Positions 3,958 to 48,566 of a stretch of 64,000 nt of DNA are shown in pieces (position 1 is the first letter of the stretch; every line of letters starts with the position of its first letter). The translations under genes and the position numbers were made by a program. Below the pieces are notes generated by a model that saw only the letters and a program-made list of their open reading frames with translations, did not search any database and was not told the DNA's origin. The stretch lies in NCBI GenBank assembly GCA_029432795.1, contig JARNMJ010000020.1:1-64000 (forward strand), in the 5' to 3' direction. Source of the DNA: Pontiellaceae bacterium B12219. GTDB taxonomy: Bacteria > Verrucomicrobiota > Kiritimatiellia > Kiritimatiellales > Pontiellaceae.

Positions 3958-4041
3958 ATTCCAGTCTCAGATCTCAGCTTTCAAGTTTCCAGTTTCAGGT
4001 TTCAAGTTTCAGGTTTCAAGTTTCAGATTTCAGGTTTCCCC
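3958..4041. repeat. 7-bp tandem repeat array, TTTCARG type
   Basis: About twelve consecutive heptads such as TTTCAAG, TTTCAGG and TTTCAGA in strict 7-bp register; the first three are more diverged (ATTCCAG, TCTCAGA, TCTCAGC). The array ends exactly at the ilvD stop codon (4041-4043). No inverted partner was found nearby, unlike most other arrays in this window. Confidence 0.9.
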
Positions 4042-5732: not shown

Positions 5733-5948
5733 GAATAACTCCTCCGTTGATGAGGGGGAGTTTAAAAGGCTTTTCAGCCGTTGCAACTCATTAAACGAAT
5801 TTCCCATGGGTGGAACGCAGTCGTTCCCAAGGCCGGAATTTCTTATTTTTGCAGTTTCTGCATCCCTCCATCCCGGCAAAACAGGAGAAAAGACTAGATA
5901 TTTTCACCGCAAAGCCCCTTTCTCCCGAACTTGGCTCGGTCATTGCTA

Positions 5949-9588: not shown

Positions 9589-9601
9589 GTCGTTCAGTAG
9601 T

Positions 9602-9727
9602 GTTAAGTTTTAGGTGTTAAGTTTTAGGTGTTAAGTTTTAGGTGTTAAGTTTTAGGTGTTAAGTTTTAGGTGTTAAGTTTTAGGTGTTAAGTTTTAGGTG
9701 TTAGGTTTTAGGTGTTAGGTTTTAGGG
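9602..9727. repeat. Nine 14-bp tandem repeats (double heptad) GTTAAGTTTTAGGT
   Basis: Nine head-to-tail 14-bp units; the first seven are identical and the last two carry GTTAGG. Each unit is two related heptads (GTTAAGT + TTTAGGT). It begins 13 bp after the kinase fusion stop codon. An inverted array of related heptads follows at 9751-9778. There are no spacers, so it is not CRISPR. Confidence 0.95.
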
Positions 9728-9750
9728 AAATATTTTAAGCGTACGCGTGA

Positions 9751-9778
9751 TCCTTAACTCCTGAAACTTAATACATAA
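9751..9778. repeat. Inverted partner array of the 9602-9727 repeats
   Basis: Heptads TCCTTAA, CTCCTGA, AACTTAA, TACATAA on the plus strand are reverse-complement-like to the GTTAAGT/TTTAGGT units. The 23-bp spacer between the two arrays holds no gene. It lies just beyond the wbaP stop codon. Confidence 0.75.
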
Positions 9779-9787
9779 AACCAACGA

Positions 9788-11302: not shown

Positions 11303-13489
11303 TTAAGGTTCCATCAACTCAAAAATTTCATCTAATGAATCAGCCTGACGCTCCCCGAACTCATCCAGACTATTAAGCATACTCTGTGCCGACTCACCTG
11401 AACTGCCGCCGCTAACCGGCACAGCATTACGCTCCTGCGGCAGGGCCATTTGTTTTTTCAACCATTGGATATTTTTCCGGGAAGACGCGGTTCGCTTTAC
11501 CGTTTCCATTTGCTGAAAAATCGAAAGAGCTTCGGCATACTGTCCGGACTTTCGCAATTCAACCCCGAGTATCCACCAGTATTGATCGTTGAACTTGCGA
11601 TACCGGCAGGCTTCACGCAGAAGATCCAGTCCCTGAGCTTTCAGCTCGGTCGTCTGAAGTTGATCTGTCGAGCGGTTCAAAAACAGCAGGCAACGGCCTA
11701 AGCCGATGAGACTCTCCGGATCTTTCGGATTGTTTGCTAAAGCCAACTCATACCAACCGCGCTCTTCTTCAGCCAACTGCACCTTTTCCGTTCTGTCCAG
11801 GCAATGACGCCGCTCGTCATGCTTCAGCCTGCCCATACCCTGATATGCCCGCCAGTTGCCTGCGTCGATTCCAACCGCAATTGAATACCACGTTGAAGCC
11901 TGTTCAGCATCTACCAGAGCCACAGGTGTGGTCTGTTGTTTCCGATCCGCCATCTCACGGAAAATCGAGGAAGTCATCGTCTGAACACTAATGACGAATC
12001 CAGCCAGAAAAACAATCGACAGCAACCAGGAAACGGCAGCGCTCAGCTTGCGGTATGCAGGTTCAGCGGCACGGTTCTCCCCGGCTGAATTCCTGTCCGG
12101 ACTTCGTGGTTCCTGATGCCGCGCATTCGGCTCTTTAAAATCTGCCGTTTTTTGCTCTGCGTTTTTCGTCCGGCGCTTTTTGCTCATCAGAGGACCAACC
12201 GCCAGAGCCGCGAGCAAAGCAAACACCATCGCATTCGGAAAAATATGCATTTGAAAATCAAAGAAGGAGTGCACCATCGTTCCCGCAATCGTTCCCAGAA
12301 AAGCAAACCCCAAAAAAGCATGACGAACTTCATCAGCACGCAGTGACTTCATCAGCACCCAAACAGCCCCATATAACCAGGCCACCGCAAACAGCACCAA
12401 ACCGACCAGCCCGAATTCAGCCGATAATTCTAAATATTCATTATGCGGATGCCCCGTAACAATCTGAACACCTTTGAAACGTTTTCGAAATTCCGGATAG
12501 GCATAACGATAGGTTCCCGGCCCATAGCCTGTAATTGGAGAAGCACTGATCATATCAATCGTATCCAGCCAGGTCTGAGGTCTGAAATCGGGAGAATCAC
12601 TACCGATTCCCCCATTCGACTGGGCTTCGAGAAACTGAACCACCGGCGTCATTCGACGCTGGAAGGTTTCCGAAAAATTCCAGGCCCCTACGAGAAGCAG
12701 AATTGAAAGCAGTGGCACCAGAATCACCAAACCGGCAAACAGCTTTTTGCTGCGGCGCAGCGCCATCAAACAAACCACAACCCCGACCGCAGCGATGCTC
12801 CCCAGCCAGCCGGCACGCGACTCCGACAGAAAAAGCGGGGGAAGAAAAATCAGAAAACTGTATCCCGCCAAAATTTTAAGATAGAGCCCTGCCTGCGGAA
12901 TAAAAAGCAGCGCCAAACAAAACGGCAAAAGCATCTGCATTAGATGTGCAAAATGGTTCGGGCAAATATACGTCGAAGCCAGTCGCCCATCATAATGCTC
13001 CGTATACCGTTGCGTCCAGAGCACCGAATCGGGCGATTTAAAATGCGCCACCAATCCATACAAAGCCGTAAGCATCACCACAAAAATTAAACAACCCAGC
13101 ACAATCCGGTTGTCCTTAAAAGCCGTCAGTTCCTGGCCCCAAACCAAATACGAACCAATCACAGCCCCGAAAAAAAGTATCCGAATTTTCGCATCAAACG
13201 GCATCACCGCAGAAGGAATCAGAAAAATCCCCCAGAACAGGAAAAGCAGCCACAAGGAAGTTGAAACTGGAAACCTGAAACTGGAAACCTGAATACCAGA
13301 AGTCTGAAGTTGCCCCGCCGGCTGTCGGCAGGCACCTGACAGTTTCCAGCTTCTATTGATCAACGCAGCGGAAATCGCAGCATACGCCAACACAAAAACC
13401 GGCCCGAGCAAGAAGGACTTATCCTGCCCCGCCACGCCGTAGAAGAGGAACGAGCAGATCGTTAATAAGATAAGAAGTAATGAAGTCAT
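11303..13489 (-). CDS. O-antigen ligase/polymerase (Wzy_C) with C-terminal TPR
   Basis: A 728-residue inner-membrane protein with about 12 hydrophobic helices. The periplasmic Wzy_C signature is GYGPGTYRYAYPEFRKRF followed by HPHNEYLELSAEFGL, placing it with O-antigen ligases and polymerases. Residues from about 560 on are soluble TPR-like helices (WYELALANNPKDPESLIGLG), which often couple such enzymes to partners. Residues about 46-76, between helices 2 and 3, are encoded by an inverted pair of 7-bp repeat arrays (13263-13353) and read QTSGIQVSSFRFPVST; this looks like an inserted loop. Whether it ligates or polymerises is open, since a second Wzy-like gene lies at 31756. Confidence 0.8.
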   Translation of the reverse strand: MTSLLLILLTICSFLFYGVAGQDKSFLLGPVFVLAYAAISAALINRSWKLSGACRQPAGQLQTSGIQVSSFRFPVSTSLWLLFLFWGIFLIPSAVMPFDAKIRILFFGAVIGSYLVWGQELTAFKDNRIVLGCLIFVVMLTALYGLVAHFKSPDSVLWTQRYTEHYDGRLASTYICPNHFAHLMQMLLPFCLALLFIPQAGLYLKILAGYSFLIFLPPLFLSESRAGWLGSIAAVGVVVCLMALRRSKKLFAGLVILVPLLSILLLVGAWNFSETFQRRMTPVVQFLEAQSNGGIGSDSPDFRPQTWLDTIDMISASPITGYGPGTYRYAYPEFRKRFKGVQIVTGHPHNEYLELSAEFGLVGLVLFAVAWLYGAVWVLMKSLRADEVRHAFLGFAFLGTIAGTMVHSFFDFQMHIFPNAMVFALLAALAVGPLMSKKRRTKNAEQKTADFKEPNARHQEPRSPDRNSAGENRAAEPAYRKLSAAVSWLLSIVFLAGFVISVQTMTSSIFREMADRKQQTTPVALVDAEQASTWYSIAVGIDAGNWRAYQGMGRLKHDERRHCLDRTEKVQLAEEERGWYELALANNPKDPESLIGLGRCLLFLNRSTDQLQTTELKAQGLDLLREACRYRKFNDQYWWILGVELRKSGQYAEALSIFQQMETVKRTASSRKNIQWLKKQMALPQERNAVPVSGGSSGESAQSMLNSLDEFGERQADSLDEIFELMEP
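13263..13353. repeat. Inverted pair of heptad arrays inside the ligase gene
   Basis: Left arm 13263-13311: GAAACTG, GAAACCT, GAAACTG, GAAACCT, GAATACC, AGAAGTC, TGAAGTT. Right arm 13333-13353: CACCTGA, CAGTTTC, CAGCTTC, the inverse orientation. The 21-bp spacer contains GCCGGCTGTCGGC, itself a small hairpin. The reading frame of the host gene stays open through all of it. Confidence 0.85.
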
Positions 13490-18630: not shown

Positions 18631-21231
18631 TCAGTCCCGCGACTCCATCCGCTTCAGGATGCGCTTTGCCCTCACCCACTGTTTAAAGGTCTGAAAAACA
18701 AACCGCGGATTTCCAATAATGTATCTGCGCCAAAGTCGCTTCGGTTCCGTACATAAACGAAACAGCCATTCGAGGCCCGACTTCATCATCCAGCGCGGCG
18801 CCTGCCGTACATGGCCCGCATGAAAATTAAAGGCAGCTCCCACCGCTAAAATGGCCGCGCAGTCCAGACTGGGCCGAAATTCCGCCACCCAGTAATCCTG
18901 CTTCGGCGTTCCCAGCCCACACCAGACGATATCCGCTTTGGCCGCATTGATCCTTTCCGAAACCTCATCCTTCTCCGATTCTTCCAACGGCCGAAACGGC
19001 GGAGAATACATGCCGGCAATCTTCAGTTTAGGGAATTTGGCCAACAGATTGGTTTTGAGTTCCGCCAAGACCTCATCCGTCGCCCCATAGAAATAATGGC
19101 TGTATCCTTTTTCTTCACTCAGTCTGCACAGCTCCAGCATCAAATCCGGCCCATATACCCGGGTGGCATCCGTAAACCCGAAATGCCGTGCCAGCCATAC
19201 CAGCGGCATACCGTCCGTCGTCGCCATGCCCGCATCCATAACAATCTTTGCCATATCCGGTCGGTCATAACACTGCACCACCGTATCGGCGGTGCAGATA
19301 TTCACATAATGCTTCTTCCCCGTTTCCACCCAGTTAGCCACCCGGTCACGGGCACGCTCCATCGTCATGGCTGAAAGCGATACACAACCTGCCGGGAATC
19401 GATCATATCCCTCAGCATCTTTGTACGGCTCGACCGGACGTTCATGTATAAACATCGGAAACTTTTTCAGATGCAGCATCTGAGCAAACACCTTCAGGAT
19501 AAACATCGGATTGTCCGGCAAATACCGTTTCCAGAGACGCGGTTGCTTGATGCCGCGGTGCAGCCACTGCAACCCTGCATACTTGATCCAGTCCGGCGCA
19601 TCTTTTTCCACCCCGGCATTCACATCAAACGCATAGCCCACCGGACATATAATTTTACACTTCAGCCGATCGCGAATCTGATCCATAAAATAAAGCTGTT
19701 TCGGCGTGCTGATACCGATCCAGAAAATGTCGGTATTCGAAGCATTCACCTCCTCCACCAGCGCATCCTCTTCCTCCGGCGTCAACGGACGGAACGGCGG
19801 ACAGCAGATACCCGAAATTTGAATCTTCGGATGTTTTTCCTCCAGTACCACTTTGAGTTTTTCGACAATACCCGGCGCGGCTCCCCAGAAATAGTGACGC
19901 CACCCCTTGTCTTCGCCATAGGCACACGCATCACGCAACAGATCCGGTCCATATACCCGCTCAATCTGACGTTGCCCATAAAGTTTACCCAACCAAACCA
20001 AGGGCATACCATCCGGTGTGTTCAACACCGATTCATTCAGAATGCGTTGCAGATTTTGTTTCCGCCTGGATTCCACAATCCCCGCAACCCCCATCGCCGT
20101 GGTCATGGCCGGTAACCGGGTCGTTAGACCCGATGACAGGTTGATGGTTGATGGTTGATGAGGTAGGGACGAATCGCCGATCTGTCCGTCTGCGGCTGTC
20201 TGCGATGCTTCTATTCTCTTTGTGCCTTCGTGTGCGCAATTGCTCCCGTTAGTCTCAATTGTATGGCCAAGCCCCAGATCCAGCACCCCCGTCTCATCCT
20301 GAGAGGGATAGAGGAAGTTTGACTCAATAGAGTCTGAACCTCCCTTGAAACCTGAAACTTGAGACTTGAGACCTGAATCCCCTACTAATGTCTCATGCCT
20401 AGTGCCCAATGCCTGGTTCGCCTCCAGCCCAATGCCTGATGCCTTGTCTCCAATTATTTCCTGAAATAATTCGAGGCAATCCTCCATATTCACCGCATCA
20501 ATCCCGACCCCCAGAACATTAAACCGTCGATCTTCCAACGATTTCTTCCGCGTGACATACGCAATATTGAACAGCGCGAACAGAATAATACCGATGGATA
20601 CACCAATTAGACTCTCCAGAAAGTCAGCAAACGAAACCGGCCGCGATGGCGCAAGGACCTGTAACAATTCAGTTTGCTGCGACCACATAAAACCGCAAAC
20701 CAATAACAGAACAGTTCTGCCCCAATAGTCCCATTTTTTGGACGGATCGATCGGAAAAAGAAAACAAATCCCCAACGCTATGCCGAACAGAGCAAACAAG
20801 CCCATCTGGCCCGCCCGGTGAATGTCAAATTGCGATAGACTTTCAAGGTACTGCGTCAACTCCTGGTGCAGACTGAACTCCTTGAACAGATCTTTTCCAT
20901 AAATCGTTTTCCAGGCGACATCAAACTCGTGGACCGCCGTTGCAGACGCTTTGCCTGGATAGGCCTTAACAGTCTCCTTAGGTAGCAACGTCCCCGCTAA
21001 AATGACTGCCGCCAGGAACACGACTGCAATTCCTCCGATTCGGTTCAGGATATTTAACTGCAGCAGATATCCGAACAGAGTAACTCCCAGGATCAGGGAA
21101 AGGGCCGCTATTGAGACGGGCGGCAGGACCAGCCCCCCGAGTTTCTGCAATACATGAATAAACAGAAACAGAACAATTGTTCCAAAGATTGGAAAGAACC
21201 ATTTTCCCCACTTTAAAATCCCGTTCCTCAT
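18631..21231 (-). CDS. VanZ-like membrane domain fused to two GT26 (WecG/TagA) domains
   Basis: 866 residues. Residues 1-235 hold about seven hydrophobic helices with the VanZ pattern (TELLQVLAPSR then FADFLESLIG). Residues 240-600 form a first WecG/TagA/CpsF domain (NVLGVGIDAVNMED, TPDGMPLVWLG, PKQLYFMDQIRDRL). Residues 618-860 form a second (TTDGMPLVWLARHFG, GTPKQDYWVAEFR, LAVGAAFNFHAG). Such enzymes add ManNAcA- or ManNAc-type sugars to lipid-linked intermediates. The first domain is split after its opening strand by about 105 residues (257-364) encoded by 7-bp repeats. Both domains keep the DGMP active-site segment. The ATG overlaps the stop of the methyltransferase gene (ATGA). Confidence 0.85.
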   Translation of the reverse strand: MRNGILKWGKWFFPIFGTIVLFLFIHVLQKLGGLVLPPVSIAALSLILGVTLFGYLLQLNILNRIGGIAVVFLAAVILAGTLLPKETVKAYPGKASATAVHEFDVAWKTIYGKDLFKEFSLHQELTQYLESLSQFDIHRAGQMGLFALFGIALGICFLFPIDPSKKWDYWGRTVLLLVCGFMWSQQTELLQVLAPSRPVSFADFLESLIGVSIGIILFALFNIAYVTRKKSLEDRRFNVLGVGIDAVNMEDCLELFQEIIGDKASGIGLEANQALGTRHETLVGDSGLKSQVSGFKGGSDSIESNFLYPSQDETGVLDLGLGHTIETNGSNCAHEGTKRIEASQTAADGQIGDSSLPHQPSTINLSSGLTTRLPAMTTAMGVAGIVESRRKQNLQRILNESVLNTPDGMPLVWLGKLYGQRQIERVYGPDLLRDACAYGEDKGWRHYFWGAAPGIVEKLKVVLEEKHPKIQISGICCPPFRPLTPEEEDALVEEVNASNTDIFWIGISTPKQLYFMDQIRDRLKCKIICPVGYAFDVNAGVEKDAPDWIKYAGLQWLHRGIKQPRLWKRYLPDNPMFILKVFAQMLHLKKFPMFIHERPVEPYKDAEGYDRFPAGCVSLSAMTMERARDRVANWVETGKKHYVNICTADTVVQCYDRPDMAKIVMDAGMATTDGMPLVWLARHFGFTDATRVYGPDLMLELCRLSEEKGYSHYFYGATDEVLAELKTNLLAKFPKLKIAGMYSPPFRPLEESEKDEVSERINAAKADIVWCGLGTPKQDYWVAEFRPSLDCAAILAVGAAFNFHAGHVRQAPRWMMKSGLEWLFRLCTEPKRLWRRYIIGNPRFVFQTFKQWVRAKRILKRMESRD
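20140..20451. repeat. Composite heptad-repeat tract inside the GT26 fusion gene
   Basis: Two clear arrays: GTTGATG x3 plus AGGTAGG (20140-20167), and TTGAAAC, CTGAAAC, TTGAGAC, TTGAGAC, CTGAATC then AATGTCT, CATGCCT, AGTGCCC, AATGCCT (20345-20414), with looser repeats to 20451. Between them is a less regular low-complexity stretch. The whole tract encodes a polar, low-complexity insert within the first GT26 domain without breaking the frame. Confidence 0.85.
21180..21194. repeat. TTCCAA-AGA-TTGGAA palindrome
   Basis: A perfect copy near the start of the GT26 fusion gene, read as FFPIFGT, a third reading frame relative to other copies. Confidence 0.85.
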
Positions 21232-36661: not shown

Positions 36662-38164
36662 TCAACTCCTTCTAAAAATTCTTCGTACTATTGCCGCCAC
36701 AGCCTGCCTATCCAGAATGATATTTAATAACACAACAATCAGGACTGAACTGGTGGACACGATGATAGCGGAATATAGCCACTGTAAATAATGGTTATAG
36801 TGGAAATTAAATTGATTTAACAAAATTACAACTGCGGTAACACCCAATAAAACCCGAAGCATACGCGCAATACTTATCCCTGGAGTCAGTTTTGTAACAT
36901 GCCGTGGAATGTAAAAAGCCAAATCCACCGCCCGGTAGGCATTAGAAAGCAACATACCGAACATAATTCCATTCAATCCCCAGACCGGAGCAAGGGCGCA
37001 ACAGGCCAATACTGCAATCACCAGTTGAATTGATGTTTGCAGCCGGGTCGTACGAAACAAACCTGCGGACTGGACCAACATTCCCTGCGGTATTTTTATA
37101 TTATATATTAAACAGTTGAGTGTGATCAGAAATGCGAACCCGGGTCTGTCATAGGATGTGTCTTCGATTCCTCGGGTAAACAGTTTTACAAATGGAACAA
37201 TCAAGACAAACAGACAGGAAAATACCCACGTTATCATCATATAGTAAAAGACCTCGAACTCAGTATACGCCTGCTGCAGTCGCTTAGTATTCTTACTGGC
37301 AATCAAGTCACCAAACGACGGAAAGAGGTTATTGATAAATATACCTAGAATTCCAGTAATCCCCTTTATTACCATGTTGTAAATAGCAAATACACTGACC
37401 TCTAGTAATGAGGTAAATATTGTCGCCAGCACCACGGGAAGTCCCTGTTGCGTGGCGCCCAGCAACTTCAAATAGAAAACACTCCAACGTTGCTCCAGCA
37501 AAGATTTATCCACTTTTGCATGGAAATCTATATGCCGATAATGCTTTCGAACATAGAGCCAGAAAAACAGGGGATAAATTATCAGAGCCGCTAAAGCAAC
37601 AGACCGTGCAACCAAAATACTCGCCCCGGAATAAGCCATATAAACAACAAGTGCCGTATTAGCCACGATGGCTAGAATGGAAACAATTGAAAGGACGTAT
37701 AATCTTTGGTCAGCCGTGAATAATACCCTGTATTTTGCCATGATGAAAAACTGGACGGTTCCTGTCATGCCCACCACTACTACCAGCAGTCCGACATCCA
37801 ACCGACTTAAAGAACAATCATTGGTGATAAACGGATATAAAACCGCCAGCAGAAAAACCAAACCTACAAAAATACATCCAACGAGGTTGTAATAGTGTCT
37901 TGCAGTAGATACGACCGCACTTACAGTTTTATCATCTTTTTCAGCTAGCGGTTTGTACAAGGCATAGATGGCAGCTCCGCCCAGACCGGCTTCTACAACA
38001 TCGAAATAGCTGATAAACTGCCGTATCGATGATACCAGCCCATTGATCGATGACCCATACACGGTTAAAATCACCTTGGGAAGAATGAACCCAATAACGA
38101 GCAAAGTCATCTGGAGCAGAGCTGCAGCTATACTATTTATCGCAAATTTTTTAGTTCTACTCAT
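36662..38164 (-). CDS. wzx: Wzx-type polysaccharide flippase
   Basis: 500 residues with 12-14 hydrophobic helices and almost no soluble domains. FAINSIAAALLQMTLLVIG, then FILPKVILTVYGSSINGLVS, and the charged loop after the third helix fit the MOP/PST exporter group. It flips the lipid-linked repeat unit. It is the only flippase-like gene in the locus. Weak codon bias and an AT-richer composition match the neighbouring transferases. Confidence 0.85.
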   Translation of the reverse strand: MSRTKKFAINSIAAALLQMTLLVIGFILPKVILTVYGSSINGLVSSIRQFISYFDVVEAGLGGAAIYALYKPLAEKDDKTVSAVVSTARHYYNLVGCIFVGLVFLLAVLYPFITNDCSLSRLDVGLLVVVVGMTGTVQFFIMAKYRVLFTADQRLYVLSIVSILAIVANTALVVYMAYSGASILVARSVALAALIIYPLFFWLYVRKHYRHIDFHAKVDKSLLEQRWSVFYLKLLGATQQGLPVVLATIFTSLLEVSVFAIYNMVIKGITGILGIFINNLFPSFGDLIASKNTKRLQQAYTEFEVFYYMMITWVFSCLFVLIVPFVKLFTRGIEDTSYDRPGFAFLITLNCLIYNIKIPQGMLVQSAGLFRTTRLQTSIQLVIAVLACCALAPVWGLNGIMFGMLLSNAYRAVDLAFYIPRHVTKLTPGISIARMLRVLLGVTAVVILLNQFNFHYNHYLQWLYSAIIVSTSSVLIVVLLNIILDRQAVAAIVRRIFRRS

Positions 38165-38261
38165 TTTGAATAAATAAAGAGACGACTTGGACTACGAAAA
38201 TCTAAAAAAACATCAGTGGTCGTCAGCATGTTAGTCCACACAAAGAACTGAATATAAACAT

Positions 38262-39626
38262 TTATTTTTCTACTCGTTGCTTGAGTCGCCGAACAATCCC
38301 ACCGACCTTCAGCAGCAGGCTGTACCCCCGGGTTGGCCATTTCATCCTGCGGTCAAAAGTAGAATAATTGCCTGCCCTACGACAGTCCTTCCATACGACA
38401 GCACTTCTTTCCCGAAGATAGATCCGGTAACGGTAAATCAACTTTCTCAGCAACGGGATACCACTATCGACTGCATCTACCCGTTTCTTAGGCACCCATG
38501 CTGTACGTTTCTGTTTAAGATATAAACGGTCACCTAAGCCGGTCCTTCGATGCCGGAATCCACCGCCCTGCGACATTAAGGCCTCTTCCGCAGTCAGTTC
38601 ATCAAAAGCCAGTGTTCCTGATTTCATTCCATCATCGATGATAGATTGAATGGTTTCATTACGAACCACCACCACACTATTTCCTAGCGAGTCATTTGTG
38701 TAGTCTTTCAACCAGGCATCGCCCACGGCAATATCAGCCGTTTCCGCAAAAATATCATCGCAATAGTCGCAAGCCTCGTATTTAAAAAATCCAAGCCCCC
38801 AGTTCGTTCCCGGCGTTTCCCGGGCCACCAGTTCTTTTTTATTTCCGTGTAAATCCTCAACACAGATCCCGTAATCATCCGCATTACGATCTTCGAATTT
38901 ATGGCGGAAATCTATCGCCTTCATTTCATCGGGATTAAACCCCGCACGCCAGGCCATTAAATCGGCATACGCCTTGGATTTCAGATGACCGCAAACCAGT
39001 CCGACAAAAAAGTGAATCCGTTCTGCCAATATCTCATCCTGCCCACACAACCGCCGGACTGTTTTAATAAAACAGGGAATTCCCACAAAGGCATATCGAC
39101 CCTCATTATTTTTAATGAAATCCATCACCTCAGATATTTCGATTGGATAATACCGCGACTTAGCCCCTTGCACGACTTCTTCCGGTGTTCGGGAAAACCC
39201 GTATTCAAACAGCGTACCCGATTTGTCAGATTTTTTAACATGCACAACTGCATCAACGAGATCGCGTTTCAATAATTCACTCAGCGTATAGGTCAGGATA
39301 CCACCGGATGTAACCTTCTTTCTCAGCCCTGTATCGGAAACGTGCCCCGCATAGAGCGCTTTATGATATCCAACAACTTCAGCATAGGAACCGGATTCGT
39401 AATCAAATACCCGCTGACTGATTTCATCCTCATTGGGTCCTTCATTAGAAAAGGGACAAACCGCCAACGCCGCATCCAAATCCATGTCTTTTGCTTCAGG
39501 CTGGATACGCCCCTGATATTGACGGTATTCATCTTCAATAAGATCAATACTGCCTTTTCCAACAAAAGCACAGGCCCCGCATCCAATGCAGTACCCGCCA
39601 TCAATAATTTCATTTAAGTCATGCAT
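38262..39626 (-). CDS. F420-hydrogenase/dehydrogenase beta-subunit-like Fe-S protein
   Basis: 454 residues. The N-terminus carries a 4Fe-4S ferredoxin motif: CIGCGAC (19-25) plus VCPF. It is followed by FrhB/FdhB N- and C-terminal regions (TSGGILTYTLSELLKRDLVDA, GIPCFIKTVRRLCG, CDYCDDIFAETADIAVGDAWL) with extra cysteines for a second cluster and flavin. No hydrogenase partner is present. In capsule loci this family occurs with pyruvyl-transferase-like genes, probably in a redox step on a sugar or lipid. It is cysteine-rich and probably oxygen-sensitive. Confidence 0.83.
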   Translation of the reverse strand: MHDLNEIIDGGYCIGCGACAFVGKGSIDLIEDEYRQYQGRIQPEAKDMDLDAALAVCPFSNEGPNEDEISQRVFDYESGSYAEVVGYHKALYAGHVSDTGLRKKVTSGGILTYTLSELLKRDLVDAVVHVKKSDKSGTLFEYGFSRTPEEVVQGAKSRYYPIEISEVMDFIKNNEGRYAFVGIPCFIKTVRRLCGQDEILAERIHFFVGLVCGHLKSKAYADLMAWRAGFNPDEMKAIDFRHKFEDRNADDYGICVEDLHGNKKELVARETPGTNWGLGFFKYEACDYCDDIFAETADIAVGDAWLKDYTNDSLGNSVVVVRNETIQSIIDDGMKSGTLAFDELTAEEALMSQGGGFRHRRTGLGDRLYLKQKRTAWVPKKRVDAVDSGIPLLRKLIYRYRIYLRERSAVVWKDCRRAGNYSTFDRRMKWPTRGYSLLLKVGGIVRRLKQRVEK

Positions 39627-39784
39627 AATAAGTTCCTCGAAAAGGGATCAAAAAGAGTCGTGTCAATATTTGAGTGTTCGGAATGGGCAAACAAATGAGG
39701 CTAGTTCGGGTTGAAATTTCCGCCTGCAATATACTCCGGCGCGACAGCTGGGTTTTCCGCCTTCGTTCGACGACGGCGTGACAT

Positions 39785-39805
39785 GTAAGTGTTAAGAATT
39801 AGGGG
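39785..39805. repeat. Three heptads at the toxin gene breakpoint
   Basis: GTAAGTG, TTAAGAA, TTAGGGG: related to the 9602 array. It overlaps the stop codon of the truncated ParE-like gene, at the point where homology to the toxin family ends. Confidence 0.6.
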
Positions 39806-39983
39806 CTGAAGAAAAACGGACGACAGAAACCTGAGTCCATCCATCGGTATACTCAAGAATACGGGCAATCGTTTGGCGGATTTCAATTAAAAAGTCGCTG
39901 CCCAGTCCCGGCTGGCACATTTCATAATAATCAACCGCATCGCTGAGCTCTCTCTCTGCTTGCGGAAGAAAACGATGGTTCAT
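39792..39983 (-). pseudogene. RelE/ParE-type toxin, C-terminally truncated
   Basis: 63 residues. FLPQAERELSDAVDYYE and ARILEYTDGWTQVS are the familiar ParE opening and first beta strand. The following strands with the usual basic residues are missing: homology stops after WTQVS, where a heptad-repeat remnant (39785-39805) begins. The ATG overlaps the antitoxin stop by 4 bases, the usual toxin-antitoxin coupling. Probably inactive. Confidence 0.7.
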
Positions 39984-40210
39984 TTGCTTAAGCGTTCCTG
40001 TAATCTACGGAAGACGTCCTCTCCGGCCACGGACTGAACGTCTCCACTCCGATACGATTCCAGGCGTTTCTCTGTTTCTTTGACCCATGCTTCCTGAATG
40101 GATTTCGGTGACGGATTTATACTTTCGAGTAATTTATCAATCAGTCTCAGCCTTTGGTCTGTCGGGAGATCAAGAACTTCATCATAGTTTTTTTAAGCAA
40201 AAGCGGTCAT
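39980..40210 (-). pseudogene. Addiction-module antitoxin with a premature stop
   Basis: From the ATG at 40210 the frame reads MTAFA then TAA at codon 6, and continues in the same frame as KNYDEVLDLPTDQRLRLIDK to GEDVFRRLQERLSK, ending at the toxin start. This is the short addiction-module component family found upstream of ParE toxins. No in-frame alternative ATG, GTG or TTG follows the stop. The stop lies beside a run of seven A, so a sequencing or slippage error is possible. Confidence 0.65.
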
Positions 40211-40312
40211 AATTTTTCCTCGATCTATTTCTGGCTTATACGCTTTCTACTCCTGGTTCTGAAGCCTTTTCGACGGGATGAGATTGGATAGCATTCTGTT
40301 AAAAGGTTTATG

Positions 40313-40419
40313 GGTAGGGCCGGTTCGACGAACCGGCCGCCCGGTCGCTCGGGTTGCGGAAGGCGCCCCTTCTATACGGCAGCTCGTGCTTTCAGCGCGC
40401 TCGGCGAGCACGCTCTACC
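40313..40419. repeat. MITE-like structured element with GGTAGRGC ends
   Basis: 107 bp bounded by GGTAGGGC and GCTCTACC, a one-mismatch terminal inverted repeat. Just inside the left end is a perfect 10-bp inverted repeat with a single-base centre (GGCCGGTTCG-A-CGAACCGGCC). The rest is GC-rich with GCTCGTGC/GGCGAGCACG hairpins. There is no coding content. It stands in AT-richer surroundings, next to the decayed toxin-antitoxin pair. The region 40211-40516 holds nothing else recognisable. Confidence 0.6.
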
Positions 40420-40516
40420 TTTTTGCATCCCGGCGGCAGAACACCCTTCCAACAGATTCAATTCCGCTTCGTGATTTAGACCGCCGAAATATGACGCAGT
40501 TGTTTATGAGCGGCGT

Positions 40517-41284
40517 TTATGGGGCGATGGCGCGGAAATACTGCACGTCATACGGGGTAGTAGTGAAGCTCATATTGGTATCGGTGCTGAATGTGCCGGA
40601 AACGGTGTTCCAGACATTGGAAGCGAGGTTCGTACTGGATTGGATGACATAATTTGTGATGGAGGCTCCGTCGAATTCGGCGCTAATATATGACATTGAG
40701 TTCGAGGTTTCCAATGAGAGATAAACTTCACCATTTTCATCAAGAACAGTGATATCCATCGATTGCAACCCAATGACGCTGTTAGTATTTCCTACGTAAA
40801 AGTCAATTTCAACACCGGGATCAACCACTATTTCGGTAGAATAGACTTCATAGCTTCCTAAATCGCCCTCCGTAATCTGATGACTGGGTTGCCCTTCTAC
40901 TTCAACAACAAAAACCGAATTCGATTCAAAGCCCACGAAGTCGATCGCATTGATCTGCAGTTTTTTATCAAACGAGACGATCATGTGCTCGGTAAAATCG
41001 AATCGTGTCGTGTGTTCATCCGGTGAAGAGACATCAATATCATCTATACCAAATGAATTTGATGAAGCTGTCGCATTCAACTTATGTCGATCACTTCCGG
41101 ATCGGGCAGTTATATTTAATCCAGCAATTTCATACACATTGGTTGTTAACGGATTATTTTTTACTGCTTTAAGTAAAGCTCCTGTTGTATCGCCCGAAGA
41201 ACTGCCTTTAAAGACGACCGTTTCCGCCGTCGCTCCCCCCGCCAACAATCCAACTACAGCCAAACAACTCGCCTTTTTCATCAT
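40517..41284 (-). CDS. Secreted protein of unknown function with C-terminal adhesion-type domain
   Basis: 255 residues with a signal peptide (MMKKASCLAVVGLLAGGATA). The middle (25-190) is beta-rich with no recognised family. The last 50 residues (YVIQSSTNLASNVWNTVSG, ending YFRAIAP) match the terminal domain of the GH172 protein and, more loosely, of the protein at 60741. No membrane anchor or PEP-CTERM motif is present. It is a single gene with GAGGAA before the ATG, flanked by the MITE-like element and an AT-rich gap. Confidence 0.65.
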   Translation of the reverse strand: MMKKASCLAVVGLLAGGATAETVVFKGSSSGDTTGALLKAVKNNPLTTNVYEIAGLNITARSGSDRHKLNATASSNSFGIDDIDVSSPDEHTTRFDFTEHMIVSFDKKLQINAIDFVGFESNSVFVVEVEGQPSHQITEGDLGSYEVYSTEIVVDPGVEIDFYVGNTNSVIGLQSMDITVLDENGEVYLSLETSNSMSYISAEFDGASITNYVIQSSTNLASNVWNTVSGTFSTDTNMSFTTTPYDVQYFRAIAP

Positions 41285-41583
41285 GGTATATTCCTCTTTT
41301 TAATTTACATAGAATGAAAAACTTCTTGTAAGAGGAATAATAAACAGCACCATGCATTTCAAGCCAATTTTTATATTTCTTATTTATTTTAAACAAGGTG
41401 CAGATCGCGAAATAAATTTAACTTCAGTCCAACAAAACCATCGCAAGCAAAGACAATGCCTTCACATATTTCAACCGGAGGTCCACAGCTGATGGTTCGA
41501 AGTTTGGAACAATCCATCAGTTTTGCGGGGTTTCATCGGATGTTGCACACTCCCTTCCATCGATTTGTTGACGGAACTTTTTT
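41285..41583. other. AT-rich intergenic region
   Basis: 299 bp between the secreted protein gene and rfbC. No open frame, RNA structure or convincing terminator was seen. It includes the 5' untranslated region of the secreted protein gene at its left side. Confidence 0.6.
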
Positions 41584-42123
41584 CTAAAAATATTTCGCTT
41601 CGGCGAACAGAGGAAGTACGGCATCTTTTTCCGAAACCAGCGGGTCAATATCCTGCGGCCATGCAATTCCAAGGACTGGATCATTCCACATCACGCCGTA
41701 TTCATCGCCGGGCGTATAGAAATCATCGCACTTATACATAAAATCAACCGTATCGCTCAGCACCATGAAACCGTGCGCAAAGCCCTTGGGAATAAACAGC
41801 TGCCGGCCGTTTTCAGCCGACAGGATTTCCCCGACCCATTTTCCAAAGGTTGGAGAATCTTTCCGCATATCCACGGCAACATCGAAGACCTCGCCTTGCA
41901 AAACGTTCACCAGTTTAGACTGGGCATGCTCGAATTGATAATGCAGTCCGCGTAATACGCCACGAGAAGAGCGCGACCAGTTGTCCTGCACAAAGTGCAC
42001 ATCAATACCGATGGCAGTATATTGCTCCGCGTGATAGGTCTGCTGAAAGAATCCGCGATCATCGTTAAACCGACGAGGCGTGATCAGCTTCACATCGGGG
42101 ATAGATAAATTCTCTACGATCAT
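41584..42123 (-). CDS. rfbC: dTDP-4-dehydrorhamnose 3,5-epimerase
   Basis: Third enzyme of dTDP-L-rhamnose synthesis. The 179-residue length is normal. RRFNDDRGFFQQTY, RGVLRGLHYQFEHAQSKLVN (catalytic His) and FIPKGFAHGFMVLSD are all present. It is separated from rfbA by 226 bp of inverted heptad arrays. No strong Shine-Dalgarno sequence is seen; TAAGAAAA precedes the ATG. Confidence 0.95.
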   Translation of the reverse strand: MIVENLSIPDVKLITPRRFNDDRGFFQQTYHAEQYTAIGIDVHFVQDNWSRSSRGVLRGLHYQFEHAQSKLVNVLQGEVFDVAVDMRKDSPTFGKWVGEILSAENGRQLFIPKGFAHGFMVLSDTVDFMYKCDDFYTPGDEYGVMWNDPVLGIAWPQDIDPLVSEKDAVLPLFAEAKYF

Positions 42124-42130
42124 TTTTCTT

Positions 42131-42344
42131 ACGTTCTTCGTTCTTAGTGCCTGGTGCCGGGTGATTAGAGGCCAGTCCCCGGTGCTTAGTCTCTGGTGCT
42201 TGGTGCTTTGCTTTCAGCGGCAATTTCGGGGGCATCCTCAAAATCGGCACGGACCACAAGGATTCAGGGACTAGGGACTAGGAACTAAGCACAAAGGACT
42301 AGCTACTAAGCACTAAGCACTAAGCACTAAACACTAAACCCCTA
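42131..42344. repeat. Inverted pair of long heptad arrays between rfbA and rfbC
   Basis: Left arm 42131-42207 has eleven heptads of the TNGTGCY type (TAGTGCC, TGGTGCC, CGGTGCT, TAGTCTC, TGGTGCT). Right arm 42261-42344 has twelve heptads of the GNACTAA type (GGACTAG x3, GCACTAA x3, ACACTAA), which is the reverse complement family. The 53-bp spacer shows no gene. The arms could fold on each other in RNA or cruciform DNA. Confidence 0.95.
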
Positions 42345-42349
42345 ACAAA

Positions 42350-43222
42350 CTAAATTTCACCCCGGGCGATTCGCAGCAAATACTGCCCATAGTTATTCTT
42401 CTGCATGGATTCACCCAACACCGTCAACTGCGCGTTATCGATATATCCCAACCGGTACGCAATTTCTTCAATACAGGAAATTTTAAGCCCCTGACGTTTC
42501 TCGATTGTTTCCACATAGTTTGATGCTTCGTGCATCGCATCGTGTGTTCCGGTATCCAGCCAGGCAAAGCCTCGGCCCAGACAACAAACGTCAAGTTCGC
42601 CCCATTCAAGGTACTGTTTATTGACATCCGTAATTTCAAGTTCGCCGCGAGCCGAAGGCTTCATGGTGTCCACAATCTCAACGACCCGATTATCATAAAA
42701 ATAGAGTCCCGGAACGGCATATCTCGATTTGGGATGTGCCGGTTTTTCCTCTAGAGATATCGCTTTACCTTCATCATCGAACTCAACAATGCCGTATCTT
42801 TCCGGATCACTTACTGGATAAGCAAAAATCGTTGCCCCCGAGTTATGAGTTACCGAGTCTTTAAGCATTTTCGGAAAACCATGCCCGTAAAAAATATTAT
42901 CGCCGAGAACCAAAGCCACGGAATCATCGCCAATGAATTCTTTACCGATGATAAACGCCTGCGCCAACCCGTCCGGACTCGGTTGCACCGCATAGCTGAT
43001 TGAAAGACCGATGTTGGATCCATTGCCCAGCAATTGTTCAAACATCGGAAGATCCTGCGGTGTGCTGATGATCAGTACTTCGCGAATTCCTGCCAGCATT
43101 AACGTGGAAAGCGGATAATAAATCATCGGCTTATCATACACCGGCAGCATTTGTTTACTGACCACCTGCGTCAACGGATACAACCGCGTTCCGCTTCCAC
43201 CCGCTAAAATTATTCCCTTCAT
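42350..43222 (-). CDS. rfbA: Glucose-1-phosphate thymidylyltransferase
   Basis: First step of dTDP-L-rhamnose synthesis. 290 residues with [20 protein letters not shown] (catalytic signature complete), [16 protein letters not shown] and [12 protein letters not shown]. It lies downstream of the four-helix-bundle gene, which separates it from rfbB. Confidence 0.96.
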
Positions 43223-43244
43223 TTTAAATCTCCGTTTTAAGACT

Positions 43245-43272
43245 GTGTTAGGATTTAAGTATTAGGTTTTAG
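43245..43272. repeat. Heptad array at the 3' end of the four-helix-bundle gene
   Basis: GTGTTAG, GATTTAA, GTATTAG, GTTTTAG. It overlaps the last codons (NSLKPNT) and stop of the gene at 43255. It is inverted relative to the array at 43618-43648. Confidence 0.8.
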
Positions 43273-43611
43273 GGAATTGATCAACCCATGAAGCATTCGA
43301 GAGATTGATTCGCAATTGGACTTTAACCCTTCAAACCCGGTCTGATCAATATAGCCAATACGTGCTGCGATCAAAAGTTGAGTCCTCACCTCAGCACAAG
43401 ACCCTTTTGCAATATGCAGAAAGTGAATAGTTTCTTTCTTTGATTCCCGCTCCATTCCTTCCGCAATATTGGATGCAATTGAAACCGATGCTCTACAAAT
43501 CTGATCCTTAAATCCGTAATCCCGGCATCCTTGAAGGAGTTTATAAATGCTTACACTTACATCCACCGAAAATTTCCAGACTTCTAGATTTTCATACGAT
43601 TGATAGGACAT
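43255..43611 (-). CDS. Four-helix-bundle protein, S23/23S-IVP family (Avd-like fold)
   Basis: 118 residues. The family pattern is clear: [14 protein letters not shown], then [20 protein letters not shown] and [17 protein letters not shown], then [12 protein letters not shown]. Members occur as open frames in 23S rRNA intervening sequences, and the fold is shared with the Avd accessory protein of diversity-generating retroelements; their own activity is not established. It is not a sugar-pathway gene yet lies between rfbB and rfbA. Inverted heptad arrays (43245-43272 and 43618-43648) bracket it exactly: one encodes its last residues and the other supplies its Shine-Dalgarno AGGA. Confidence 0.85.
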
Positions 43612-43617
43612 CGTTTT

Positions 43618-43648
43618 CCTAAATCATAAAACCTAACACATAAAACCC
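43618..43648. repeat. Heptad array at the 5' end of the four-helix-bundle gene
   Basis: CCTAAAT, CATAAAA, CCTAACA, CATAAAA, CCC on the plus strand. On the minus strand the innermost heptad reads ATTTAGG and gives the AGGA ribosome-binding site 6 bases before the ATG at 43611. It also abuts the end of rfbB (stop at 43655). Confidence 0.8.
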
Positions 43649-43654
43649 ATGTAT

Positions 43655-44770
43655 TTATGCGCGTCCCAGCCGCTCGCCGGAATAACGACCTTCGCGGAGC
43701 GGGCGCCACCACCAGTCGTTGTCGAGGTACCATTGAATGGTGCGACGGATACCGGTATCAAAATTTTCCTGCGCTTTCCAACCCAGCTCCGTTTCCAGTT
43801 TGGTAGCATCAATGGCATACCGCGCATCGTGACCAGGGCGATCGGTTACAAAAATGATTAAATCCCGGTAGGATTTAGCTACGTTCGTTGGTTGATCCGA
43901 ACTCTCCGCATCATTTGACAACGAACATTCATCATTTTGGGACTGCCTCGGGCGCAGCTCATCGAGAATATCACAAATGGTTTCCACCACTTCCAGATTG
44001 GTGCGTTCGTTGCGGCCGCCGACGTTGTAGGTTTCGCCCAACCGTCCGGAATCAACAACGGTGACCAATGCACGGGCGTGATCTTCGACATACAACCAGT
44101 CGCGGATATTGTCGCCTTTTCCATAGATCGGAAGCGGTTTTTCATCCAGCGCATTCAGAATCACAAGCGGAATCAGCTTTTCCGGAAAATGATACGGACC
44201 ATAGTTATTCGAGCAGTTCGTGATCACCACCGGAAGACCGTAGGTATGGAACCAGGCTTTCACCAGATGATCGCTGGAAGCCTTACTGGCCGAATACGGA
44301 GAGCGCGGGTCATACGAAGTTGTTTCTTCAAAAAGTCCTTCAGTGCCTAATGAACCGTACACTTCATCGGTTGAAATATGGTGGAAACGGAAATTCGTTT
44401 TCCGGTCATCGGAAAGGGTATTCCAATATTCCCGTGCACATTCCAGCATGGTGTACGTACCCATGATATTCGTTTCCATGAAGGCCGCAGGTCCGTCGAT
44501 GGAGCGGTCAACGTGCGACTCGGCCGCAAGATGCATCACCGCATCCGGCTGAAAATCAGCAAAAAGAGCTGCAATCGCATCCTTATCGCAGACATCAGCC
44601 TGCGCAAAGCGATAGAGCTTGCTGTCTTCTATCTCTTTCAGCGATTCCGGAACGCCGGCATACGTCAGTTTATCCAGATTAAGGACCGCACATTTTTTAT
44701 CTTTTACCAAATGGCGGCAAACCGCAGACCCGATAAATCCGGCACCGCCGGTTACTATATATTTTTTCAT
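43655..44770 (-). CDS. rfbB: dTDP-glucose 4,6-dehydratase
   Basis: Second step of dTDP-L-rhamnose synthesis. 371 residues, slightly long. [39 protein letters not shown] and [12 protein letters not shown] (Tyr-Lys) are intact. Between DELRPRQ and [15 protein letters not shown] about 20 extra polar residues ([18 protein letters not shown]) replace the short family loop; the DNA there has an 8-bp inverted repeat (43883-43890 and 43919-43926). It overlaps rfbD by 4 bases. Confidence 0.95.
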
Positions 44771-45648
44771 AGCGCTTTAACCTCCTCTATCACTGAATCA
44801 CCATGACGATCCACAAATTGATTCAACTCATCCTGCCAACCCCTGAAAACATTAATGCCCAAGGCCTTCGCATGGGCATTTTCAAGAATGGAATTGACGG
44901 GGCGTTTCGTCGGTGTCGGAAACTCATCGGATGAACAGGGGACAAAATGATGCGGCACATTTAAGGCCTCAAGAAACGCACTGGCCAGTTCATACCATGT
45001 GCCATAACCTTCCGATGAAGCATGAAAAATACCCGTTGCGCGCTGTTCTGCAATCGCCCGGATTTGGCGGGCAAGCGTCATCGACCAGGTTGGCGAACCG
45101 TATTGATCGTTCACGACGTTGAATGCTCTATCCGGATTCTGCAGCGTGAGCCGCAGCATCGTTTTCAGAAAATTATTTCCATGCGCTCCGTAGAGCCAGG
45201 CCGTGCGAAGGATGGCGTACCGGTCGGTCTGCTCCGCAATCGCCAGCTCGCCGGCCAGCTTTGATTTTCCGTATTCGGAAATCGGATTCGGCTCATCCGT
45301 TTCTACCAGCGATTGGAACAACGGTTTATCACCCGAGAAAACATAATCGGTTGAAACGTGAACCAAAAAAGCATCATTCTTTTCGGTCCATTCCGCCAGA
45401 TGCGAGGGAAGATCCCGATTGGCCTTCCAGCAGGTTGGATCCGTTTCACAGGCATCCACTGCTGTATAGGCCGCACAGTTGATGATCGCGTCCGGCTTCA
45501 GCCGATCCAAAAGTTCCAGACATTGGAAGCGATCGGACAGGTCGACCTCCGGCAGATCAATCCCCGAAATTTCAGGGATATCGTTGAAGATTTCGAGGCA
45601 GTCGGTTCCGAGCTGCCCCTTCGCTCCGGTTATAAGTATATTTTGCAT
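44767..45648 (-). CDS. rfbD: dTDP-4-dehydrorhamnose reductase
   Basis: Final step of dTDP-L-rhamnose synthesis. 293 residues with [26 protein letters not shown] and YGKSKLAGE (Tyr-Lys pair), then RTAWLYG. It overlaps rfbB by 4 bases and follows cysNC by 45 bp. Confidence 0.95.
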
Positions 45649-45693
45649 CCAGAGATGCTGCCGTTTTCCAACAAGCGGAAACGTTTGTTTTTG

Positions 45694-47664
45694 CTAACCG
45701 ATCAAACCACGATCTTTCAGATCACCAATGATCAACGCTGCGGCAGCGGCCGGTTCGAGATTTTCCGTTTCAACGGTAAGCTCGGCATCCTGCGGCGCTT
45801 CATACGGATCGCTGATCCCGGTGAACTGCTGAATCTCTCCAGCCCGCGCTTTTTTATACAGCCCTTTCGGATCGCGCTGCTCACAGATTTCAATCGGCGT
45901 ATCAATGAAGACCTCGACAAATGCGTCATCACCAATCACTTCGCGCGCCGAAGCCCGGTCGGAAATATACGGTGAGATGAAGGAGGTGATCACAATCACA
46001 CCGGCGTCATTCATTAAGGCGGCCACTTCAGCAATGCGACGGATATTTTCTTTGCGATCTTCCATCGAGAAGCCGAGGTCGCGGTTAAGGCCGTGCCGCA
46101 CGTTATCCCCGTCGAGGATGTAGCAGAGATGACCTTGCCCGATCAGTTCTTTTTCAAGATCCTTTGCAACGGTCGATTTTCCGGAACCGCTCAGACCGGT
46201 CAACCAGATGGTTGCACCTTTCTGATTCAGCAGTTTTTCGCGGTCGGCCTGAGTGACGAGACTTTCGCTCTTCACAATATTCTGACTGACCGGGGCCGTT
46301 TTATGACCCGGCTTGGAAACGATGCGGTCCACAATCATGCCCGCACCAACCGTGACGTTACTCAGGCGGTCCACAATAATGAAAGCGCCGGTGGTGTGGT
46401 TTTTATCGTACGGATCAAATGCAATCGGACGATGCAGTGTGATGTGGCAACGGGCAATCTCATTGAGATCAAGCGTACTGACTTTTTCCGTTTCTTCATC
46501 CACGTTTTTATCGCGCTTCATGGTGTTTACATCCACCTTGTAGCGAATGTCGGAAAGAACGCCCGGAATCATAGAGGCGGTGTGCTTAATCAGGTAGCTT
46601 TTTCCCGACTGCGCAGCGCCTTCATGCATCCAGACCACCATGGCTTCAAACTCATTTCCAATGTGTGGAATATTGTTCACCGGCACCAGCATGTTACCGC
46701 GCGAAACATCGATTTCATCCTCAAGCGTTGCAGTGATTGCCTGAGGGGCAAATGCTTCTTCAACCTGTCCATCCGGACCATAAATCGCTTTGATTTTCGA
46801 CTGCTGACGCGATGGAAGACTGGCAACTTCGTCGCCGACCCGAATGACGCCGGACGCCATCGTACCGCTGAATCCCCGGAAATCGAGATTCGGGCGCAAG
46901 ACATACTGAACCGGCAAGCGCATATCGATCAGATTCCGATCGGTTGAAATATTCACATTTTCCAAATGGTGCAGGAAGGTCGGCCCATCGTACCAGGACA
47001 GGTTTTCACTGTGCTCCACCACATTGTCGCCTTTGAGGGCCGACATCGGGATAAAATGAATATCCGAAAATGCCAGACGGGAAACAAACGCATTATAGTC
47101 GCGCACAATCTCATTGTATTTTTCTTCTGACCAATCCACCAAATCCATTTTATTGACGGCAACAACCACGTGTTTAATGCCGAGCAAAGAGCAGATGAAA
47201 CTGTGCCGTTTTGTCTGTGTGATCACACCGTAGCGCGCATCAATCAGAATGGTGGCCAAATTACAGGTTGAAGCGCCCGTGGCCATATTCCGGGTGTACT
47301 GTTCATGGCCGGGGCAGTCGGAAATAATGAATTTGCGTTTGTCCGTGGAAAAATAGCGATAGGCCACATCAATGGTGATCCCCTGCTCGCGCTCGGCTTT
47401 CAGACCGTCGGTCAAAAGCGCCGGATCAAAATCTTCATTGGTGGTGCCGTAGACCTTGGAATCTTTCGTAATTTTTTCCAGCTGATCTTCATAGATCATG
47501 TGGCTGTCGTATAACAGGCGGCCGATCAACGTCGATTTTCCATCATCAACCGAACCGCAGGTCAGAATGCGCAGCAGGTCTTTGGTTTCATGACGATTCA
47601 GATATTCGGCAATATCGCCGCGAATCAGTTCTTCTTCTTGAATTTTGTAGGTTGATTCACTCAT
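45694..47664 (-). CDS. cysNC: Bifunctional sulfate adenylyltransferase subunit 1 / APS kinase
   Basis: 656 residues. CysN (1 to about 450) is a GTPase that drives APS formation: [18 protein letters not shown] (P-loop), [17 protein letters not shown] and NKMDLVDWS. CysC (about 470-656) phosphorylates APS to [18 protein letters not shown] and [16 protein letters not shown]. It shares one base with the cysD stop (TAATG). PAPS is the donor for sulfotransferases; no PAPS reductase or sulfotransferase is in the window. Confidence 0.96.
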
Positions 47665-48566
47665 TAGAAATACCCGTCTTTTTTCTTATCTTCCATGGAG
47701 GAGTTATCGCCGTCGATCACGCGGCCCTGGCGTTCGGAGGTGCTGGTGAGCAGCATTTCCTGCACAATCTCTTCCACGGTTTCCGCTTCCGATTCCACGG
47801 CACCGGTCAGCGGGTAGCAGCCCAGCGTGCGGAAACGCACCTTTTTCATCATCGGTGTTTCGCCTTCTTTCAGCGGCATGCGATCGTCATCCACCATAAT
47901 CAAGGTACCGTCGCGCTCCACGACCGGGCGCTCTGCGGCAAAATACAGCGGAACAATCGGAATTTCTTCGCGAAGCAGGTAAAGCCAGATATCCAGCTCG
48001 GTCCAGTTCGAAAGCGGGAATACACGAATAGACTCCCCCTTATTAATTTTGGCGTTATACAGATTCCACAGTTCAGGACGCTGATTTTTCGGGTCCCACT
48101 GATGAAACTCATTACGGAAGCTGTAAACCCGTTCTTTTGCACGGCTCTTTTCTTCGTCGCGGCGGGCACCGCCGAAAGCGGCATCGTATTTGTAGTGGTT
48201 AAGGGCCTGCTTCAACCCCTCGGTTTTCATGATCTGTGTATGCTTTTCCGAACCGTGGGAAAAGGGGCTGACCTGATCTTTTCCATCCGGGTTAATCCAG
48301 ACGTTAATATCCACGTTGTAATGATCCGCCATCAGCGAACGGAATTTATACATTTCCTGGAATTTCCACTGCGTATCCACATGCAGCAGCGGAAAGGGGA
48401 TCTTTCCGGGAGCAAAGGCCTTGTGCGCCAGATGCAGCATGACCGAAGAATCTTTTCCGATCGAATACATCATGACGGGATTGTCAAATTCTGCCGCGAC
48501 TTCGCGGATAATATGGATGCTTTCCGCTTCCAGTTGTTTCAAATGCGATAGGTTATAACCGCTCAT
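47664..48566 (-). CDS. cysD: Sulfate adenylyltransferase subunit 2
   Basis: 300 residues. Catalytic ATP-sulfurylase subunit with the PP-loop [32 protein letters not shown], and the C-terminal [20 protein letters not shown] typical of CysD. It works with CysN as a heterodimer. It ends one base into the cysNC start. Confidence 0.96.

Follow-up and report, generated by a model that had tools for sequence, protein, structure and literature searches.

The rfb operon in the window analysed here, a stretch of 64,000 nucleotides of DNA from Pontiellaceae bacterium B12219, raises the question of why a small four-helix-bundle gene lies between rfbB and rfbA with short inverted repeats at both of its ends. 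A sequence-only reading of the locus had assigned this gene to the S23/IVP family, related in fold to Avd of diversity-generating retroelements (DGRs), and had proposed a mobile cassette bracketed by inverted heptad arrays, whose protein might act on heptad repeats elsewhere in the genome.

The IVP gene and its heptad arms

The IVP gene (43255-43611, minus strand, 118 aa) does interrupt the operon, as it is located between rfbB (43655-44770, minus strand; dTDP-glucose 4,6-dehydratase), the upstream neighbour whose stop codon is the insertion point, and rfbA (42350-43222, minus strand; glucose-1-phosphate thymidylyltransferase), the downstream neighbour. Its family assignment was borne out by profile search, in which the ORF matched PF05635 with E=1.3e-35 (122 bits, curated cut-off 33.8) and TIGR02436 with 124 bits (cut-off 24). 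PF05635 was its sole Pfam match, Y1_Tnp (HUH tyrosine transposase) being absent, and the element does not encode a nuclease or recombinase of any known kind. Eight PF05635 genes are present in this genome, and among the genomes searched such genes occur in 18 of 20 relatives and 28 of 40 cyanobacteria; to our knowledge, no role had hitherto been assigned to them. The dN/dS ratio of the IVP gene is about 0.02-0.28 in close, unsaturated pairs, indicating that the protein is maintained and the gene is under purifying selection, and broken copies also occur.

The predicted IVP fold (pLDDT 95.8) has its best PDB match in 2GSC (XCC0516; TM 0.89), while 2RLD (BT_0352) is also matched with a TM of about 0.80. 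The kinship with Avd holds at the level of structure, as a more distant resemblance (TM 0.76-0.80 overall; up to 0.78 for 4DWL), and DGR ribonucleoprotein structures are matched as well (8UB7, TM 0.80). These matches, and the insertion mostly along the direction of transcription described below, could speak for a retro-mechanism, in which the Avd-fold IVP and a reverse transcriptase of the host or the element copy the element RNA or add heptads to DNA ends, as Avd does with the DGR reverse transcriptase. However, none of the ten proteins scanned around IVP, spanning 36662-48566, is a reverse transcriptase, and we regard such a mechanism as very improbable.

On the coding strand, the rfbB stop codon is followed by 6 nt, the 5' arm, another 6 nt, the IVP gene, the 3' arm, 22 nt and the ATG of rfbA. 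The 5' arm (43618-43648, minus strand; GGGTTTTATGTGTTAGGTTTTATGATTTAGG on the coding strand) reads GTTTTAT GTGTTAG GTTTTAT GATTTAG, and the inverted 3' arm (43245-43274, plus strand; GTGTTAGGATTTAAGTATTAGGTTTTAGGG) reads GTGTTAG GATTTAA GTATTAG GTTTTAG. Inverted arms are thus present at both ends, as had been proposed, but their heptads are degenerate and not perfect repeats; the inverted match is moderate (SW 27), a score that is reached by 7 of 2460 sliding positions along the window, in two regions. The arms pair in the predicted RNA fold, with z=-2.9 for the whole element against dinucleotide shuffles. It had also been claimed that each arm serves the gene, and this was confirmed: the 3' arm encodes the last residues (...SLKPNT) and the stop codon of IVP, while TTTAGG, the end of the 5' arm, lies 6 nt ahead of the ATG and therefore supplies a Shine-Dalgarno-like AGG. 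The 22 nt that separate the 3' arm from the start of rfbA (43223-43244, minus strand) carry a GGAG Shine-Dalgarno sequence, and GGAG or GGA is also found 3' of the arm at the other occupied rfb junctions.

Inverted arms across the IVP family

Far from being peculiar to the rfb locus, the pattern recurs in very many bacteria and in some archaea. In a pooled set of 193 IVP genes from many phyla, in which the upstream flank was compared with the reverse complement of the downstream flank, 65% of the loci matched their own flank with SW of at least 30, against 1.2% of mismatched partners, and the own pair ranked in the top 5% at 166 of the 193 loci; about 15% of the loci have no clear arms. The association of S23-family genes with heptad arrays, which the initial reading had left to be surveyed, therefore holds across phyla and in archaea. 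Direct-orientation matching was rejected as the pattern, since it reached 30 in 10% of the 193 loci, which is the background level only. Known duplicate fetches were removed from the locus set, and minor redundancy may remain.

The separate collections behaved alike. Median own-flank scores were 30 versus 16 for swapped flanks in 35 loci of relatives, 41 versus 16 in 75 of 80 loci from bacteria and archaea, where all 197 distal controls stayed below the 99th percentile of the swapped pairs, and 58 versus 18 in 25 cyanobacterial loci. In the eight-gene home genome, inverted heptads flank most IVPs, and the word differs by locus. The bracketing is centred on the gene, for ORFs adjoining IVPs scored at least 24 in 8.7% of cases, versus 76% for IVPs themselves.

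Of the 146 loci with aligned arms, 128 have a best period of 7 and 15 a best period of 8; both arms share period 7 at 126 of the 146 loci and period 8 at 14. Aligned arms have a median length of 4.6 seven-letter units, and their inward strand is G-rich and C-poor. A 9-letter unit was hinted at by lag in L015 and L027, both under the pooled score limit, and in the pooled analysis period 9 was seen at a single G-rich locus.

Two further lines of analysis were set aside. Folding of own arms gave lower duplex energies than folding with other arms (median -64 versus -49 kcal/mol), but this difference is confounded by G+C, for which reason the alignment test was preferred. A TRAP-like NAG code was also considered, as AG is frequent at one phase of the arms; that phase was chosen to maximise it, so the frequency is no evidence for such a code.

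Some loci depart from the common appearance. In Vreelandella sedimenti (L113/L250), the 3' arm is a very long, near-perfect GTGAGTT array of dozens of copies and the 5' arm is a varied mix of related heptads, from which it follows that arms can expand independently. At another locus (L004), an IVP with AATTACG arms is located near the 3' end of an apparent restriction-modification specificity gene, the coding sequence of which appears continuous on both sides of the insert.

The repeat unit follows the protein subfamily

Repeat unit and period track the protein subfamily. When the 5' arm of one locus was compared with the 3' arm of another, cross-end similarity of at least 30 was found in about 0.7% of pairs with less than 40% protein identity, versus 67% of pairs with at least 70% identity; the controls gave 17% for the wrong orientation and 0 for distal DNA. 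Shared descent at one site was separated by splitting the pairs according to homology of the flanking genes, and 25 of the 26 pairs that are at least 70% identical and have non-homologous flanking genes still share the unit at a score of at least 24. It follows that the arms move along with their gene.

Empty and occupied junctions

The cassette proposal had called for rfb loci lacking the insert, and such loci exist: the rfbB-rfbA gap is 0-13 nt in five congeners (G001, G004, G005, G006 and G010), with the rfbA of G001 being 88% identical to that of the window. At the same junction, G000, G013 and G016 carry the window's IVP subfamily, G009 and the second copy of G003 carry broken copies of a second subfamily, and G014 carries a third. 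Likewise, rfbA and rfbC are 0-1 nt apart in G001, G003 and G004, while G016 has an IVP between them and G008 a complete IVP of another subfamily. Such pairs of sites are not confined to rfb; in an unrelated gammaproteobacterial genus, the accB-accC gap is 13-14 nt wide in four genomes and contains an IVP with GGGAATC arms in two others. The empty rfbB-rfbA and accB-accC junctions, as well as arms that travel with the gene, support the mobile-cassette reading. No target-site duplication is evident at either junction, where the closest empty sites have diverged.

As a side observation, CGGAG follows the 3' arm and precedes the rfbA start in the second G003 copy, G009, G014 and G016 (L237, L230, L226 and L229, respectively), in places with a longer string, CGGAGCGAAGCGAC. 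This could mean that a ribosome-binding site for the displaced gene arrives with the element.

The position of insertion is also regular. The upstream gene is co-directional with IVP in 85 of the 99 loci where both neighbours are readable, and at 76 of these 85 loci its stop codon is found between -24 and +28 nt relative to the start of the arm, neighbour ends having been searched from 300 nt before to 25 nt after the arm start. The arm itself may contribute some of these stops, and the pattern could equally arise if insertions elsewhere were selected against. Some subfamilies occupy the same site in many relatives, which reflects vertical inheritance, so recent movement was not caught; two cyanobacterial plasmids with one gene neighbourhood in common around IVP are uninformative on movement. 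Operons with an insert include rfb, guaB-guaA (for instance L079 in Thiobacillus), accB-accC, sdh and leu.

This regularity might also be expected of a fixed post-transcriptional regulator, in which IVP would bind heptads in its own leader and in the leaders or 3' ends of other genes, and the arms would be regulatory RNA hairpins rather than transposition ends. Strong purifying selection on the gene, arms that overlap the ribosome-binding site and the stop codon, and arrays that come after stop codons all suit a regulator of this kind, and a post-transcriptional role has been proposed for TAACTGA heptads by MacGregor 2015 (PMC4679880). On the other hand, empty sites exist and one junction is shared by different subfamilies, the arms move with the gene between unrelated contexts, and the host operons rfb, acc, gua, sdh and leu have no common function. 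We consider the regulator unlikely, though worth keeping in mind.

Arrays and hairpins without an ORF

Besides the arms, the window contains arrays that enclose no IVP gene. One inverted heptad hairpin (42126-42337) fills the rfbA-rfbC gap, starts 12 nt past the rfbA stop codon and has the unit GTGCTTAG/GCACTAA, which is the unit of IVP subfamily L034/L166. A complete IVP of that subfamily occupies the same gap in G008, and none of its members was found in the present genome; to judge by unit and position, the hairpin may be a deletion derivative of a complete element. Another array (9600-9782, plus strand; nine copies of GTGTTAAGTTTTAG) starts 11 nt past a stop codon, has a short degenerate inverted partner at about 9752-9782 and carries the unit of subfamily L001/L012/L035. 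A third, with GAAACCT/GAAACTT units (3959-4038, minus strand), starts 2 nt past the stop codon of the gene at 4041-5879 (minus strand). The solo arrays at 3959-4038, 9600-9726 and 42126-42337 thus all start 2 to 12 nt past stop codons. In addition, two short GAAACCT-unit arrays lie inside ORFs (13262-13293 and 20346-20377), and for all three GAAACCT arrays of the window the best match among 195 loci is the resident IVP L007.

A similar correspondence was found among relatives, where all 7 of 7 genomes with a matching subfamily (at least 60% identity) have AGGCYTK arrays, as do 3 of the 13 genomes that lack it (p=0.003, with no correction for phylogeny). These arrays mostly sit away from any IVP, and several of them form convergent pairs separated by loops of 7-73 nt. 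Unit matching of this kind supports the proposed link to heptads elsewhere in the genome, to which IVP might bind. AGGCTTT is the unit of IVP L033, and the AGGCTTT solo arrays L208 (G013) and L211 (G015) occupy the same position of what is apparently one gene, apparently within or bordering an antisense ORF. In the gammaproteobacterial genus with GGGAATC arms, hits to this unit number 29 in G396, where the IVP is frameshifted, and 18 in G403, both IVP-bearing, as well as 23 in G400 and 4 in G401, in neither of which an IVP was found; either arrays can persist after loss of the gene, or these assemblies lack a gene that is present.

Two other comparisons were rejected. TRF counts of 7-family arrays in genome samples were noisy and sample-limited as a correlate of IVPs (per 100 kb, 2.5 in G011 and 0 in G010, both without IVP, 0 in G013 with its 18 IVPs, 5.5 in G016 and 10.9 in the window), and the GTKTTAR association test across relatives drew mostly on G000, being too thinly spread elsewhere. 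Inverted heptad arrays could, moreover, be mistaken for CRISPR-like repeats.

The existence of such hairpins bears on whether IVPs are passive passengers, merely sitting in the loops of hairpins that form a repeat family in their own right and expand through replication slippage and foldback copying. Inverted arms can become homogeneous through foldback, and slippage is visible in local 14-bp higher-order repeats, as at 9600-9726. The loop sequences of the AGGCYTK hairpins are unrelated to each other, so that these are not simple copies of one element, which also fits the passenger account. However, unit and period track the protein subfamily across contexts and genomes, and genes adjoining IVPs are not bracketed in this way, for which reasons we find the account quite improbable.

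A proposed mechanism

The interpretation that we favour, with moderate confidence, is that gene and inverted arms constitute one mobile unit of the intervening sequence (IVS) type, and that IVP reads its own unit and acts in trans. Within it, we infer protein-nucleic-acid recognition, RNase III processing, the mode of movement and array growth. The element would be a protein-operon version of the 23S rRNA IVS, landing directly after a gene's stop codon and usually in the direction of the operon. Once transcribed, its arms of about 4-5 units each would form a stem that is closed by a loop containing the IVP gene. If rRNA IVSs are a guide, the stem may be trimmed by RNase III, which might limit the damage to the host operon. 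As a pentamer, like its solved relative, IVP most likely recognises its own arm unit, and this would explain why unit and period track the protein subfamily. Similar to RAYT with REP, it might act in trans on ORF-less arrays and hairpins of its own unit. Since IVP has no known catalytic domain, movement would rely on a host or other enzyme.

A broader version can be offered tentatively, and we place it somewhat short of an even chance: the Avd-fold pentamer, with one 7-mer (in some cases 8-mer) per subunit, would set the letters and the period of the arrays and thereby represent a new class of mobility or array maintenance, IVPs together with autonomous and ORF-less arrays would be a two-part system and the source of much of the unexplained bacterial heptamer excess, and rRNA IVSs would be a special case. 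PF05635 genes and their inverted heptad arms offer a testable protein-repeat code, and since the matching array is legible in any IVP's own flanks, an assay is ready at hand.

Comparison with known systems

RAYT genes of gammaproteobacteria encode HUH tyrosine transposases, are bracketed by inverted short repeats and have ORF-less extragenic copies downstream of stop codons. The IVP element resembles this RAYT/REP system (REPtron) in its bracketed gene and its dispersed ORF-less copies; unlike RAYT, IVP has no known catalytic domain, and its arms are tandem 7- or 8-mers, as opposed to the one palindrome of REP. With Avd of DGRs, IVP has the four-helix-bundle fold in common at only about 12-16% identity, and it differs from Avd in having no adjoining reverse transcriptase among the ten scanned proteins.

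The 23S rRNA IVSs with an S23p ORF in Leptospira and Coxiella share the protein family, and in both systems complementary ends form a stem. According to the consulted parts of a previous study, tandem GACAGAT heptads directly precede the S23p start in the Coxiella IVS, in numbers that vary among strains, and this IVS has a 28-bp terminal stem and is cut by RNase III at the first repeat (PMC4990558). In those parts, XCC0516 is given as a toroidal pentamer (Lin 2006, as cited in PMC4990558), and the GACAGAT repeat is not generalised to other elements. Beyond this Coxiella remark, no general IVP-heptad link was found in the literature covered, preprints and most subscription journals lying outside it. 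In the part consulted of a CRISPR-discovery survey, a figure lists 23S rRNA IVP among associated domains (PMC10910872). Unlike the rRNA IVS, the rfb element sits in a protein operon after a stop codon and not in an rRNA gene, and unlike IVSs as hitherto known, IVP heptad arms are general, subfamily-specific and dispersed. This suggests that the rRNA intervening sequences represent one form of a more general element, which can enter protein operons as well.

Finally, heptamer repeats have been described in other bacteria, in papers that do not name the IVP/S23 protein (protein terms are absent from PMC4692102 and PMC4679880). The GGGAATC repeats of Xanthomonas lie close together as convergent pairs, of which there are 70-75 per genome, and are nearer the 5' neighbouring gene (PMC4692102), which is the same anatomy as that of IVP arms. 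For the comparison with these repeats, the gammaproteobacterial genus described above stood in for Xanthomonas. The related GGGGAYT repeats were reported for Nostoc, and TAACTGA repeats for Beggiatoaceae and cyanobacteria (PMC4679880). As GGGAATC, GGGGAYT and TAACTGA were all found as IVP arms in the loci analysed, these orphan heptamer families gain one candidate source, and elements made of IVP and heptad arms could explain several of the published heptamer repeats that have been without explanation.
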